This document shows positions 44,713 to 64,000 of a stretch of 64,000 nt of DNA, in pieces. The translations under genes and the position numbers were made by a program. Where the stretch lies: assembly GCA_036873755.1 (NCBI GenBank), contig JAVTVY010025132.1, positions 1-64,000 of the forward strand, written 5' to 3'. Positions within the stretch are counted from its first letter, which is position 1. The number at the start of each line of letters is the position of its first letter. The stretch is from Hanleya hanleyi (Eukaryota; Mollusca; Polyplacophora; Lepidopleurida; Hanleyidae). A model generated the notes under the pieces. That model was given only the letters and a program-made list of their open reading frames with translations. It ran no database searches and was not told where the DNA came from.

Positions 44713-45012
44713 TTACTCACCAGTATGATATCGTTCCTGTCTCTTGATGGCTGCTTTGTGAGCAGTGCTATATGGACAAAAGGAGCGCCTGTATGCTTTC
44801 TCTCCGGCATGAATCCGTACGTGTATCTTGAGGTCCCCTTTCTGAGCAGCGCTATGCGGACACAAAGAACATTTGTATGGTTTCTCACCGTTGTGAGTCC
44901 GTTGATGTCTCTGAAGGTGTCCTTTGTTAGCTGTGCTGTACGGACACATGGAACATTTGTATGGGTTCTGACCAGTCTGATTCGCCATATGCCTTTTAAC
45001 GCCCCTTTCCAT
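44713..45012 (-). CDS. Zinc-finger block, array 3' end (oldest-looking fingers)
   Basis: 99 codons with three diverged fingers: [38 protein letters not shown] and a third with FCPYSTAHKAAIKRQ, in which the first cysteine is replaced (YRRSFC). This is the only copy of the module in which the middle finger lacks the TAA stop seen in all later modules, so it is closest to the ancestral coding state. The sequence just upstream (45013-45115) is the module flank, perhaps intron or UTR in origin. Confidence 0.5.
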   Translation of the reverse strand: MERGVKRHMANQTGQNPYKCSMCPYSTANKGHLQRHQRTHNGEKPYKCSLCPHSAAQKGDLKIHVRIHAGEKAYRRSFCPYSTAHKAAIKRQERYHTGE

Positions 45013-45449
45013 GCAGTTTTATGTGAGCAGAAATATATTTATTATTGGTACGGAGCTCGAATTGATACGCTAATGCGCGTATAGGTGCCGTGGAATAAGA
45101 ATAGGCTAATATGACTGGGTATGTCATGCTGATGTGCAATAGGCAAATGAAGTTAGGCGGCGGATAGATAACATATAAAAGAGGCTTATCTGAATGGGGT
45201 CCTCATCGAAACCCAACCAGCTTCGACCGTGCGTACTAGTATACCATTTATTCACACATTTCTGTGCCTGTCCAAGTTTACAGCATGTAATCACCATATA
45301 CCGGTAGCATACCCGTCGATTCTCCATCGTGACTGGTCATCTCCCACTGGAGAGCGAATATACTTGCCGACAGGTGCCTTTTCTGACGTCGTTTATTGGA
45401 CTGAGAAAGTTCGTCGCTGGTCGCAAGATATGGATGAGTATTTCTCTTA

Positions 45450-45745
45450 TTACGGCATTTTAATCATGTTTTGGATTCTAAGCATTTGTTTTATTCGACT
45501 TATTATGTTTCGTTCATTTTCCCAATTCACGCCCTTGTTATAATATACCAACTGAGCAGTTTGTATCTTAAGGTCCCCTTTCTGATCAGCGCTATGCGGA
45601 CACAAAGAACATTTGTATGGTTTCTCACCGCTGTGAGTCCGTTCATGTCTCTGAATGTGTCCTTTGTTAGCTGTGCTGTACGGGCACATGGAACATTTGT
45701 ATGGTTTCTCACCAGTATGAGTCCATTCGTCAATCTTCAGGTCTC
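45450..45745 (-). pseudogene. Zinc-finger block, truncated
   Basis: Two fingers ([37 protein letters not shown]). The second breaks off before its histidines at about 45566 and runs into unrelated sequence ([12 protein letters not shown]). It is joined to the next block by a one-base frameshift near 45745. A GT (TTGGTATAT) follows the break and could be a splice donor, but no matching acceptor was established. Confidence 0.5.
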
Positions 45746-46450
45746 TTTTGAAAAAGCGCTAAACCGACGCACCGAACATCTATATGGTGTGTCACCGGTA
45801 TGATTGCTTACATGTATTGTAAGGGCCTCTTTGTGACCAGTGCTATACGGACACAAAGAACATCTATATGGTGTCTCACTGGTATGATTGCGTACATGTA
45901 TTGTAAGGGCCTCTTTGTGAGCAGTGCTGTACGGACACAAAGAACAGCTATATGGTATCTCACCAGTATGATTGCGTACATGTATTGTAAGGGCCTTTTT
46001 GTGAGCAGTGCTATACGGACGCAAAGAACATCTATATGGTGTCTCACCAGTATGATTGCGCACATGTATTGTAAGGGCCTCTTTGTGAGCAGTGCTATAC
46101 GTGCACAAAGAACATCTATATGGTGTCTCACCAGTATGATTGCGTACATGTTTTGTAAGGACCTCTTTGTGAGCAGTGCTATACGGACACACCGACCATA
46201 TATATGGTGTCTCAGCAGTATCATTGCGTACATGTATTGTAAGGGCCTCTTTGTGAACAGTGCTATACGGCCGCAAATAACATCTATATGGTGTTTCACC
46301 AGTATGATTGCGTACATGTATTGCAAGGGCCTCTTTGTGAGCAGTGCTATACGGGCACAAAGAACATCTATATGGTGTCTCACCGGTATGATTGTGCACA
46401 TGTATTGTAAGGGCCTCTTTGTGAGCAGTGCTATTCGGGCACAAAGAACA
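45737..46450 (-). pseudogene. Zinc-finger block of eight fingers
   Basis: 235 codons. Several fingers have lost zinc ligands (YRCYLRPYS, YIWSVCPYS, YRCSLRPYS, CSVRRFS). It is limited upstream by the TGA at 46451 and downstream by the frameshift at about 45745. It is more decayed than blocks further right. Confidence 0.55.
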
Positions 46451-47230
46451 TCAATATGGTGTCTCACCAGTATGATTGCGTACATGTATTGTAAGAGCCT
46501 CTTTGCGAGCACTGCTATACGGGCACAAAGAACATCTATACGGTGTCTCACCAGTATGATTGCGTACATGTATTGTAAGGGCATCTTTGTGAGCAGTGCT
46601 ATACAGGCACAAAGAACATCTATATGGTGTCTCACCAGTATGAATGCGTACATGTACCGTAAAGGCCTCTTTGTGAGCAGTGCTATACGGACACAAAGAA
46701 CACCTATATGGTGTCTCACCAGTGTGATTGCGTACATGTATTGTAAGGGCCTCTTTGTGAGCAGTGCAATACGGGCACAAAGAACATCTATATGTTGTCT
46801 CACCAGTATGATTGCGTACATGTACCGTAAGGCCCTCTTTGTGAGCAGTGCTATACGGACACAAAGAACATCTATATTGTGTCTCACCAGTATGATTGCG
46901 TACATGTATTGTAAGGGCCTCTTTGTGAGCAGTGCTATACGGGCACAAAGAACATCTATATGGTGTCTCACCAGTATGATTGCGTACATGTATTGTAAGG
47001 GCCTCTTTGTGAGCAGTGCTATACGGACACACCGAACATCTATATGGTGTCTCACCAGTATGATTGCGTACATGTATTGTAAGGGCCTCTTTGTGAGCAG
47101 TGCTATACGGACACAAAGAACATCTATATGGTTTTTCGTCGGTATGATTGCGTACATGTATAGTAAGGGCCTCATTGTGAGCAGTGCTATACGCGCATAA
47201 AGAACATCTATATGGTGTCTCACCGGTATG
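46451..47230 (-). pseudogene. Zinc-finger block of about nine fingers
   Basis: The finger frame runs from the 2-bp deletion at 47229-47234 to the TGA at 46451-46453, where Arg of PYRC has become a stop. Upstream of the deletion the same frame is out of register with the fingers. Confidence 0.6.
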
Positions 47231-47288
47231 AATGTACATGTATTGTAAGGTCCTCTTTGTGAGCAGTGTTATACGGGCACAAAGAACA

Positions 47289-61822: not shown

Positions 61823-62000
61823 TTAGGTACATTTGCATGGTTTCTCACCATTGTGAGTCCGTTCATGTCTATGAAGGTGTCCTTTGTTGGCTGCGCAAGG
61901 CGGGCACAAGGAACATTTGTGTGGGTTCTGACCAGTGTGATTCGTCATGTCTTTTAAACGCCCCGTTCCATGCAGTTCTTTGTGAGTAGAAATATACTTA

Positions 62001-62831
62001 TTATTGGTGCGGAGCTCGAATTGATATGCCAATGCGCGTGTAGGCGCCGTGGAATAAGAATAGGCTAATATGGCACAAAGAACATCTATTTGGTGTCTCA
62101 CCAGTATGATTGCGTACATGTATTGTAAGGGCATCTTGGTGAGCAGTGCTATACGGACACAAAGAACATCTATATGGTGTCTCACCAGTGTGATTGCGTA
62201 CATGTTTTGAAAGGGCCTCTTTGTGAGCAGTGCTATACGGGCACAAGGAACATCTATATGGTGTCTCACCAGTATGATTGCGTACATGTATTGTAAGGGC
62301 ATCTTGGCGAGCAGTGCTATACGGACACAAAGAACAGCTATATGGTGTCTCACCAGTGTGATTGCGTACATGTATTGAAAGGGCCTCTTTGTGAGGAGTG
62401 CTATACGGGCACAACGAACATCTATATGGTGTCTCACCAGTATGATTGCGTACATGTATTGTGAGGGCCTTTCTGTGAGCAGTGTTATACGGGCACAAAT
62501 AACATATATATGGTGTCTCACCAGTATGATTGCGTACATGTATTGTAAGGGCGTCTTTGTGGGCACTGCTATACGGGCACAAAGAACATCTATATGGTTT
62601 ATCACCAGTATGATTGCGTACATGTATCGTAAGGGCCTCTTTGTGAGCAGTGCTATACGGGCACAAAGAACATCTATATGGTGTCTCACCAGTATGATTG
62701 CGTACATGTATTGTTAGGGCCTCTTTGAGAGCAGTGCTATACGGGCACAAAGAACATCTATATGGTGTCTCACCAGTATGAATGCGTACGTGTATCGTAA
62801 GGTCGCCTTTCTGAGCAGCGCTATATGGACA
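62001..62831 (-). CDS. Zinc-finger block of nine fingers, 1009-bp unit copy 1
   Basis: 249 codons from the Met at 62750 to the CSLCHISLFLFHG tail. The block and its module repeat at 63010 with a step of 1009 bp and very few differences. Confidence 0.45.
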   Translation of the reverse strand, partial: CPYSAAQKGDLTIHVRIHTGETPYRCSLCPYSTALKEALTIHVRNHTGETPYRCSLCPYSTAHKEALTIHVRNHTGDKPYRCSLCPYSSAHKDALTIHVRNHTGETPYICYLCPYNTAHRKALTIHVRNHTGETPYRCSLCPYSTPHKEALSIHVRNHTGETPYSCSLCPYSTARQDALTIHVRNHTGETPYRCSLCPYSTAHKEALSKHVRNHTGETPYRCSLCPYSTAHQDALTIHVRNHTGETPNRCSLCHISLFLFHGAYTRIGISIRAPHQ

Positions 62832-63009
62832 TTAGGTGCATTTGCATGGTTTCTCACCATTGTGAGTCCGTTCATGTCTATGAAGGTGTCCTTTGTTGGC
62901 TGCGCAAGGCGGGCACAAGGAACATTTGTGTGGGTTCTGACCAGTGTGATTCGTTATGTCATTTAAACGCCCCGTTCCATGCAGTTCTTTGTGAGCAGAA
63001 ATATACTTA

Positions 63010-63840
63010 TTATTGGTGCGGAGCTCGAATTGATATGCCAATGCGCGTGTAGGCGCCGTGGAATAAGAATAGGCTAATATGGCACAAAGAACATCTATTT
63101 GGTGTCTCACCAGTATGATTGCGTACATGTATTGTAAGGGCATCTTGGTGAGCAGTGCTATACGGACACAAAGAACATCTATATGGTGTCTCACCAGTAT
63201 GATTGCGTACATGTTTTGAAAGGGCCTCTTTGTGAGCAGTGCTATACGGGCACAAGGAACATCTATATGGTGTCTCACCAGTATGATTGCGTACATGTAT
63301 TGTAAGGGCATCTTGGCGAGCAGTGCTATACGGACACAAAGAACAGCTATATGGTGTCTCACCAGTGTGATTGCGTACATGTATTGAAAGGGCCTCTTTG
63401 TGAGGAGTGCTATACGGGCACAACGAACATCTATATGGTGTCTCACCAGTATGATTGCGTACATGTATTGTGAGGGCCTTTCTGTGAGCAGTGTTATACG
63501 GGCACAAATAACATATATATGGTGTCTCACCAGTATGATTGCGTACATGTATTGTAAGGGCGTCTTTGTGGGCACTGCTATACGGGCACAAAGAACATCT
63601 ATATGGTTTATCACCAGTATGATTGCGTACATGTATCGTAAGGGCCTCTTTGTGAGCAGTGCTATACGGGCACAAAGAACATCTATATGGTGTCTCACCA
63701 GTATGATTGCGTACATGTATTGTTAGGGCCTCTTTGAGAGCAGTGCTATACGGGCACAAAGAACATCTATATGGTGTCTCACCAGTATGAATGCGTACGT
63801 GTATCGTAAGGTCGCCTTTCTGAGCAGCGCTATATGGACA
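63010..63840 (-). CDS. Zinc-finger block of nine fingers, 1009-bp unit copy 2
   Basis: 249 codons identical in layout and nearly in sequence to 62001-62750. The next module follows at 63780-64000 and is cut by the window edge, so further copies are expected beyond. Confidence 0.45.
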   Translation of the reverse strand, partial: CPYSAAQKGDLTIHVRIHTGETPYRCSLCPYSTALKEALTIHVRNHTGETPYRCSLCPYSTAHKEALTIHVRNHTGDKPYRCSLCPYSSAHKDALTIHVRNHTGETPYICYLCPYNTAHRKALTIHVRNHTGETPYRCSLCPYSTPHKEALSIHVRNHTGETPYSCSLCPYSTARQDALTIHVRNHTGETPYRCSLCPYSTAHKEALSKHVRNHTGETPYRCSLCPYSTAHQDALTIHVRNHTGETPNRCSLCHISLFLFHGAYTRIGISIRAPHQ

Positions 63841-64000
63841 TTAGGTGCATTTGCATGGTTTCTCACCATTGTGAGTCCGTTCATGTCTATGAAGGTGTCC
63901 TTTGTTGGCTGCGCAAGACGGGCACAAGGCACATTTGTATGGGTTCTGACCAGTGTGATTCGTCATGTCTTTTAAACGCCCCGTTCCATGCAGTTCGTTG

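Follow-up and report, generated by a model that had tools for sequence, protein, structure and literature searches.

When a DNA unit that encodes one C2H2 zinc finger recurs some 210 times at a single locus, is that locus a gene for a long poly-finger protein, a gene that has turned into a satellite, or a product of the assembler? The question is raised by contig JAVTVY010025132.1 (C20489; 110,012 bp) of the mollusc Hanleya hanleyi, the first 64,000 positions of which constitute the window analysed here; the assembly amounts to 2.48 Gb in 52,793 contigs. The answer to which sequence comparison points, and which is held here with considerable confidence, is that the locus is a non-coding tandem array derived by amplification of one finger, termed B, of a degenerate C2H2 gene copy. 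It would best be classed as a minisatellite-like array of pseudogene origin that has higher-order repeats.

Array, blocks and shared modules

The array is composed of 84-bp C2H2-finger units arranged head to tail, with the coding sense on the minus strand, from 44.7 to 68.8 kb of the contig. Tandem Repeats Finder (TRF) reported a period of 84 with 217 copies in the window (45562-63834), and a monomer scan of the contig gave 240 unit matches from 68793 down to 44704, among which 209 were at least 88% identical to the consensus. In addition, 161 C2H2 patterns (28-residue tandem fingers) are found on the minus strand between 44 and 64 kb, and one array frame matches Pfam zf-H2C2_2 at 9.8e-116. 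TRF and the monomer scan thus bear out the megarray of an 84-bp finger unit that the first-pass annotation had described, and extend it to approximately 24 kb, 4.8 kb past the window end. The contact residues are near uniform, being HEAI in 120 of 194 units.

The array is further organized into nested blocks with steps of 3.87, 3.86, 3.44, 2.53, and 1.01 kb, and the steps proposed earlier (approximately 3.87, 3.86, 3.45, 2.5, and 1.0 kb) match the measured lengths. Successive blocks are 1683, 998, 2179, 1009, 1009, 2526, 3443, 3860, 3874, and 2517 bp long, and each consists of a broken gene start followed by 10 to 40 copies of B. When the 240 units are sorted into 100 clusters (at most one edit), ordered strings of unit types prove to be common to the blocks, which indicates that whole blocks were copied and did not arise separately.

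Such copies might also come from the assembler, which could have repeated or mis-joined one or a few real blocks. The offset stretches 59342-50507 and 55481-46631 are 96.4% identical over 8,865 aligned columns with 272 mismatches, and the longest exact repeat in the array is 856 bp, so the copies differ from one another and do not represent a single sequence reiterated in assembly; furthermore, the junction that opens the blocks (described below) is present independently on four other contigs. The 272 differences argue against a pure artefact, although the assembly is a draft in many contigs, three other arrays stop at contig ends, so that such arrays evidently trouble the assembler, and one gene with the same 376-aa frame lies on two contigs (L048 on C51111 and L049 on C49126), as alleles or redundant assembly. 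An artefact is accordingly judged improbable.

Two shared non-finger modules mark the blocks, where a single one had been supposed: a 5' gene fragment at the block starts, the junction of which is present nine times, and a repeat resembling a short interspersed nuclear element (SINE), present four times. The start module is a short 5' stretch followed by the diverged fingers A1 (GQNPHKCSLCPPCAANKGHLHRH) and A2 (CT*CPYSAAQK), with A1 rearranged in one block. All nine internal block starts share an identical fusion of a B unit to the 5' sequence; the outermost block start is without the fusion, its upstream sequence continuing as CATACCCAGTCATATTAGCC. The junction is found at five array loci, C20489 included.

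The SINE-like element is approximately 300 bp long and lies within one B unit in each of four blocks, with CATACTGATGAG flanking both sides as a 12-bp target-site duplication (by eye). Its family is scattered through the genome (40 of 834 candidates were scored, at 97-100%, the four array copies included), and the element is thus short, dispersed, and flanked by a duplication. It contains a B-box-like GTTCGATCC, recognized by eye only; the Rfam scan of the window returned nothing at gathering scores. Over 306 bp, three of the copies do not differ at all, and the other shows 98% identity, so the growth of their blocks was recent or has been kept homogeneous. In the examined stretches of the array contigs, start-module blocks that repeat with a SINE were seen only at C20489, and the array spans of C37250 and C33380 contain separate SINE matches; the insertion into such arrays would either have happened more than once or have been shared. 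Another insertion, an 839-bp element between A2 and the first B unit, has inverted ends that agree at 29 of 30 bp, carries a TTA duplication (both counted by eye), and is possibly Harbinger-like.

Source finger and coding status

A guide to the source is C2716, an intact-looking relative with a 418-aa open frame of 10 fingers in the order 0-A1-A2-B-C-A1'-A2' and further. B, its third finger, is present as a single copy that shares 90.5% identity with the consensus of the array. The array of C20489 follows the order 0-A1-A2-[B]n-C remnant-A1'-A2' with n of approximately 200, and this gene-like order, together with the single B of C2716, indicates that the array is one gene copy in which one internal finger was multiplied. 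A single-copy progenitor, which the first-pass annotation had suggested seeking in related species, therefore has a likely counterpart in the same genome. The repeats of approximately 740 bp at the array ends were also considered as carriers of the N-terminal exon of the gene and rejected: tblastn aligns finger 0 onward clearly, and N-terminal matches are short, weak, and mostly at E near 1 or above.

In the arrays, the gene start is broken at every locus where it was found. Start modules number 21 at seven array loci (10 at C20489, four at C23321, two each at C43604 and C29502, and one each at C15974, C37250, and C7280) and were not seen in the examined stretches of C25566, C33380, and C1922. 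A TAA stands in A2 in 21/21 of them, and in 20/21 the tail of finger 0 is 2 bp shorter than in C2716, which shifts the frame. This frameshift is not a common property of unexpanded relatives, since C15986, C16817, and C48063 lack 3 bp relative to C2716 and remain in frame; in copies of the type of the left-hand 740-bp repeat (U_L), the finger-0 region is 1 bp shorter. Further stops and 2-bp deletions are common to the blocks. Altogether, 17 finger-frame stops and 30 frame changes occur over 44.4-69.2 kb, leaving no single unspliced open frame with a start, and a stop is found in 24 of the 197 ungapped units at C20489. The frame is not kept between units either, as 40 of the 43 steps that depart from 84 bp shift it.

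The variation among units is in line with this picture. The 477 ungapped B units of ten loci hold 147 distinct nonsynonymous (N), 46 synonymous (S), and eight stop variants, and relative to opportunity (transitions weighted twofold), the rate ratios are 1.13 for N/S and 1.34 for stop/S; distinct variants, stops included, thus look neutral.

The locus could nevertheless be a functional gene that yields one long poly-C2H2 protein or a set of shorter proteins, in which case splicing would remove the stops and frameshifts or internal start sites would bypass them. Open finger frames reach 16 fingers, and in six frames a methionine precedes at least three fingers, the longest having 570 aa and nine fingers, much of it read out of frame. 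However, 17 of the 24 open frames with at least three fingers are without methionine, both 16-finger frames among them, and the monomer is also open in a second minus-strand frame, so that long frames follow from the repeat itself and are to be expected. Several results count against a non-coding array. One start module, that of C37250, has the same finger-0 length as C2716 and no frameshift there, and the frame-shifting unit steps include repeated copies of one event and are not independent. Pairwise N/S is 0.58-0.73 in six arrays, within the 0.47-0.92 of six intact control genes; the pairwise test therefore does not separate arrays from intact genes and was set aside. Between aligned blocks it is 0.49-0.68, and for variants found in at least four loci, N/S is 0.67. 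Furthermore, replacements are fewer at zinc-ligand and core positions (0.032 per unit and residue) than at contact (0.117) or other (0.079) positions. The low N/S of widespread variants and the sparing of ligand and core residues make an earlier coding phase of the finger units possible. Set against the stop common to all start modules and the nearly universal frameshift, the stop-bearing units, and the neutral rate at which distinct stops arise, these points leave a functional gene unlikely.

No intact frame and no attached effector domain are evident in the sequence of the C20489 array, and protein function probably constrains neither its copy number nor its sequence. The proposal that the locus is a source of long poly-finger proteins thus found no support.

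Related loci and order of events

A genome-wide DNA search gave 137 matches, with 38 scored of 608 candidates, so that the following array counts are lower bounds. Arrays of B are present on nine further contigs. Units at least 88% identical to the consensus number 209 at C20489, 59 at C43604, 51 at C25566, 45 at C23321, 44 at C29502, 35 at C15974, 31 at C33380, 24 at C37250, seven at C7280, and five at C1922; in the stretches examined, the nine smaller arrays span 0.8 to 6.9 kb. Unit number thus varies from 5 to 209 among ten loci, which are paralogues or alleles (some may be alleles of one another) and of which three (C15974, C25566, and C33380) are cut by contig ends. Relatives with no expansion are also found. 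C11424 has a 299-aa frame, no array, and an extra finger between A2 and a B-like finger; among damaged relatives, C15986, C45800, and C16817 have one B each and C48063 has two. Residue 15 of B is T in 428/472 and K in 2/472 array units, and K in C2716, C48063, C15986, and C45800, which fits a single origin of the arrays.

Finger-protein searches returned generic C2H2 matches, at most 49% identical among the 120 matches listed each. Six intact-looking poly-finger genes (L044, L047, L048, L051, L052, and L053) resemble one another in the stretch that precedes the fingers at the N-terminus, where the pattern [DE][RK]P.P[LV]..Y was recognized by eye; Pfam gave no domain outside the fingers in the two that were scanned, and the stretch is possibly an undescribed effector segment. 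Elsewhere, the genome search for zf-C2H2 also listed numerous finger matches of 72 bp, among them facing pairs with approximately 1 kb between them.

The codon in A2 bears on the order of events. C15986 and C45800, each with a single B, also read TAA there; the codon is GTA in C2716, GAC in C48063, and AAA in C16817. If the arrays inherited their TAA from the same ancestor as C15986 and C45800, the loss of the frame came first and the multiplication of the finger second, and this order is the probable one. Two observations weaken this order: C48063 and C16817 are without the stop, and the tree joins C15986 and C45800 to the arrays at only 58% support on a near-zero branch, which leaves room for a parallel TAA mutation. 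That the stop predates block formation and the spread among seven loci is a firmer deduction.

A sequence of steps consistent with these data can be proposed. The number of B units would have risen through slippage or out-of-register recombination among the 84-bp repeats, after which an exchange joining a B unit to the 5' region would have given a block carrying the start module. Later out-of-register exchange between start modules would have multiplied the blocks, with insertions carried along; this mechanism is suggested by the unit strings and the single junction. The loci would have spread, probably by segmental duplication, and at C20489 a SINE would have inserted, after which the SINE-holding blocks multiplied.

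As for the spread, the dispersed finger unit may instead be a mobile element with the array as its internal tandem repeat, a reading that concerns dispersal and is compatible with the origin from a degenerate gene copy. The unit recurs with its parts in the same order, direct repeats of approximately 740 bp stand at both array ends, and the flank 44650-43893 is matched on 19 other contigs (40 scored of 778 candidates). The adjoining part of the flank (43891-43300), however, belongs to an older repeat present on approximately 19 further contigs, mostly at 74-83%. For the unit itself, neither a transposase nor target duplications came to light, and no common ends did either, although the ends of its copies were not mapped. 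On either side, the homology among array loci (mostly 93-99%) also reaches beyond the finger-coding sequence and is interrupted by different insertions, which fits segmental duplication. A mobile element is therefore a doubtful, if conceivable, vehicle. A further idea, that array transcripts or small RNAs act against intact C2H2 genes and make the dead exon a source of homology-based silencing, has very little probability.

Other features of the window and contig are collected with those of the array in Table 1. A second tandem array, with a 42-bp unit, has 14-residue repeats open in frames of both strands and only two marginal Pfam matches, and resembles a coding-looking minisatellite. Two lectin-like frames contain a C-type lectin domain, the first also a PAN domain, and a protein search with the first returned nothing at E 0.001. 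Beyond the window, an inverted pair of frames (L010 and L011) comprises one with a GPTGCGKT motif (by eye) and a one-finger protein; Pfam assigned no family to the one frame scanned, and the pair looks like a virus-like or mobile element. L012 is a long terminal repeat (LTR) retrotransposon pol frame with reverse transcriptase and RNase H matches.

Table 1. Features of the array and its surroundings (contig coordinates; the window is 1-64000)
Feature	Position	Strand	Remarks
Window part of tandem array, type B 84-bp finger units	45562..64000	-	consensus CSLCPYSTAHKEALTIHVRNHTGETPYR; TRF, monomer scan, consensus; runs on to contig 68793
Higher-order block, 3,874 bp	48341..52214	-
Higher-order block, 3,860 bp	52215..56074	-
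Higher-order block, 3,443 bp	56075..59517	-
Higher-order block, 2,526 bp	59518..62043	-
Higher-order block, 1,009 bp	62044..63052	-	neighbour 63053-64061 of equal length and equal unit string
Last block ahead of array 3' end, 2,517 bp	45824..48340	-
Array 3' end	45562..45779	-	finger C remnant (RFSAFSKET), then fingers A1', A2' of gene copy
U_L direct repeat	44827..45567	-	90.7% over 743 columns to U_R (contig 68665-69405, opposite array end)
Three degenerate fingers of second, unexpanded gene fragment	44704..44955	-	finger-frame stop at 44715
Representative start module	48060..48375	-	fusion junction TTGTGCC joined to ATATTAGCC at 48375; frameshifted finger 0; fingers A1 and A2 with TAA
Further fusion junctions	52249, 56105, 59552, 62078, 63087		window
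Further fusion junctions	64096, 66264, 67273		contig, beyond window
SINE-like element, copy 1	50190..50495	+	inside B unit; identical to copies 3 and 4
SINE-like element, copy 2	54058..54357	+	98%; 6-bp deletion, one substitution
SINE-like element, copy 3	57911..58216	+
SINE-like element, copy 4	60521..60826	+
Possibly Harbinger-like element, 839 bp	67827..68665		contig, beyond window
Lectin-like frame	8354..9415	+
41-bp tandem repeat	26326..27738		34.8 copies (TRF)
Lectin-like frame	31727..32662	+
42-bp tandem array	36932..41062		TRF 36947-41024
Inverted frame pair (L010, L011)	83780..87915		contig, beyond window
LTR-retrotransposon pol frame (L012)	94991..99081		contig, beyond window

Comparison with known repeat systems

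In higher-order repeats of the alpha-satellite type, monomers are ordered into multi-monomer blocks that are themselves repeated. The monomers of C20489 are likewise ordered into repeated blocks, but they lie in 24 kb at one locus, the monomer is a coding domain, and neither centromeric placement nor satellite abundance is claimed. Head-to-tail repeats with higher-order organization are present as in satellites, whereas ten array contigs, the largest array being 24 kb in 2.48 Gb (a lower bound, as above), do not amount to satellite abundance. The idea of a gene turned satellite therefore holds for the tandem amplification of units and blocks with hitch-hiking modules; what was amplified, however, was a degenerate copy, and its abundance is not satellite-like. 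D4Z4/DUX4 macrosatellites are kilobase tandem blocks that each carry a whole gene frame. C20489 shares the kilobase blocks with a gene-derived frame and differs in that its block is a broken gene start with many copies of one finger. A genic origin, in an intron of NOS1AP, has also been suggested for the CapA satellite (PMC8210747). Single-copy genic sequence turned into a tandem repeat in both cases, but the source at C20489 is a former coding exon domain and the unit exactly equals the domain repeat of the protein.

Among coding arrays, that of PRDM9 shares the 84-bp unit equal to one C2H2 finger and the kind of turnover, described as duplication, deletion, and gene conversion of 84-bp units, with 7-17 repeats in mouse Prdm9 and approximately two in one allele (PMC3890296). 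The C20489 array has more than 10 times as many units, higher-order blocks, and the shared stop and frameshift. Diversity at the contact residues of PRDM9 is stated in the abstract of that paper (PMC3890296), whereas the contact residues of C20489 vary only little more than others (see the replacement rates above). Poly-zinc-finger genes of the KRAB-ZNF type, reported to have 4 to more than 30 fingers in human (PMC2604467), are similar in having a tandem C2H2 finger exon and a family expanded within one genome. They differ from the C20489 array, which is without an intact frame or attached effector domain. In the open-licence papers searched, judged by titles and the starts of abstracts, no description of a non-coding higher-order array from a zinc-finger exon was found.

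Finger arrays of the PRDM9 kind turn over fast, and it is a standing question how far selection or the intrinsic instability of the 84-bp repeat is responsible. If the order of events proposed here holds, the locus would be a natural control for the behaviour of the 84-bp repeat under little or no coding constraint, and would allow the conversion of a single protein domain into a satellite-like array to be traced. The contrast lies within one genome, where B is present in approximately 210 units in a broken gene copy and once in the intact-looking C2716.

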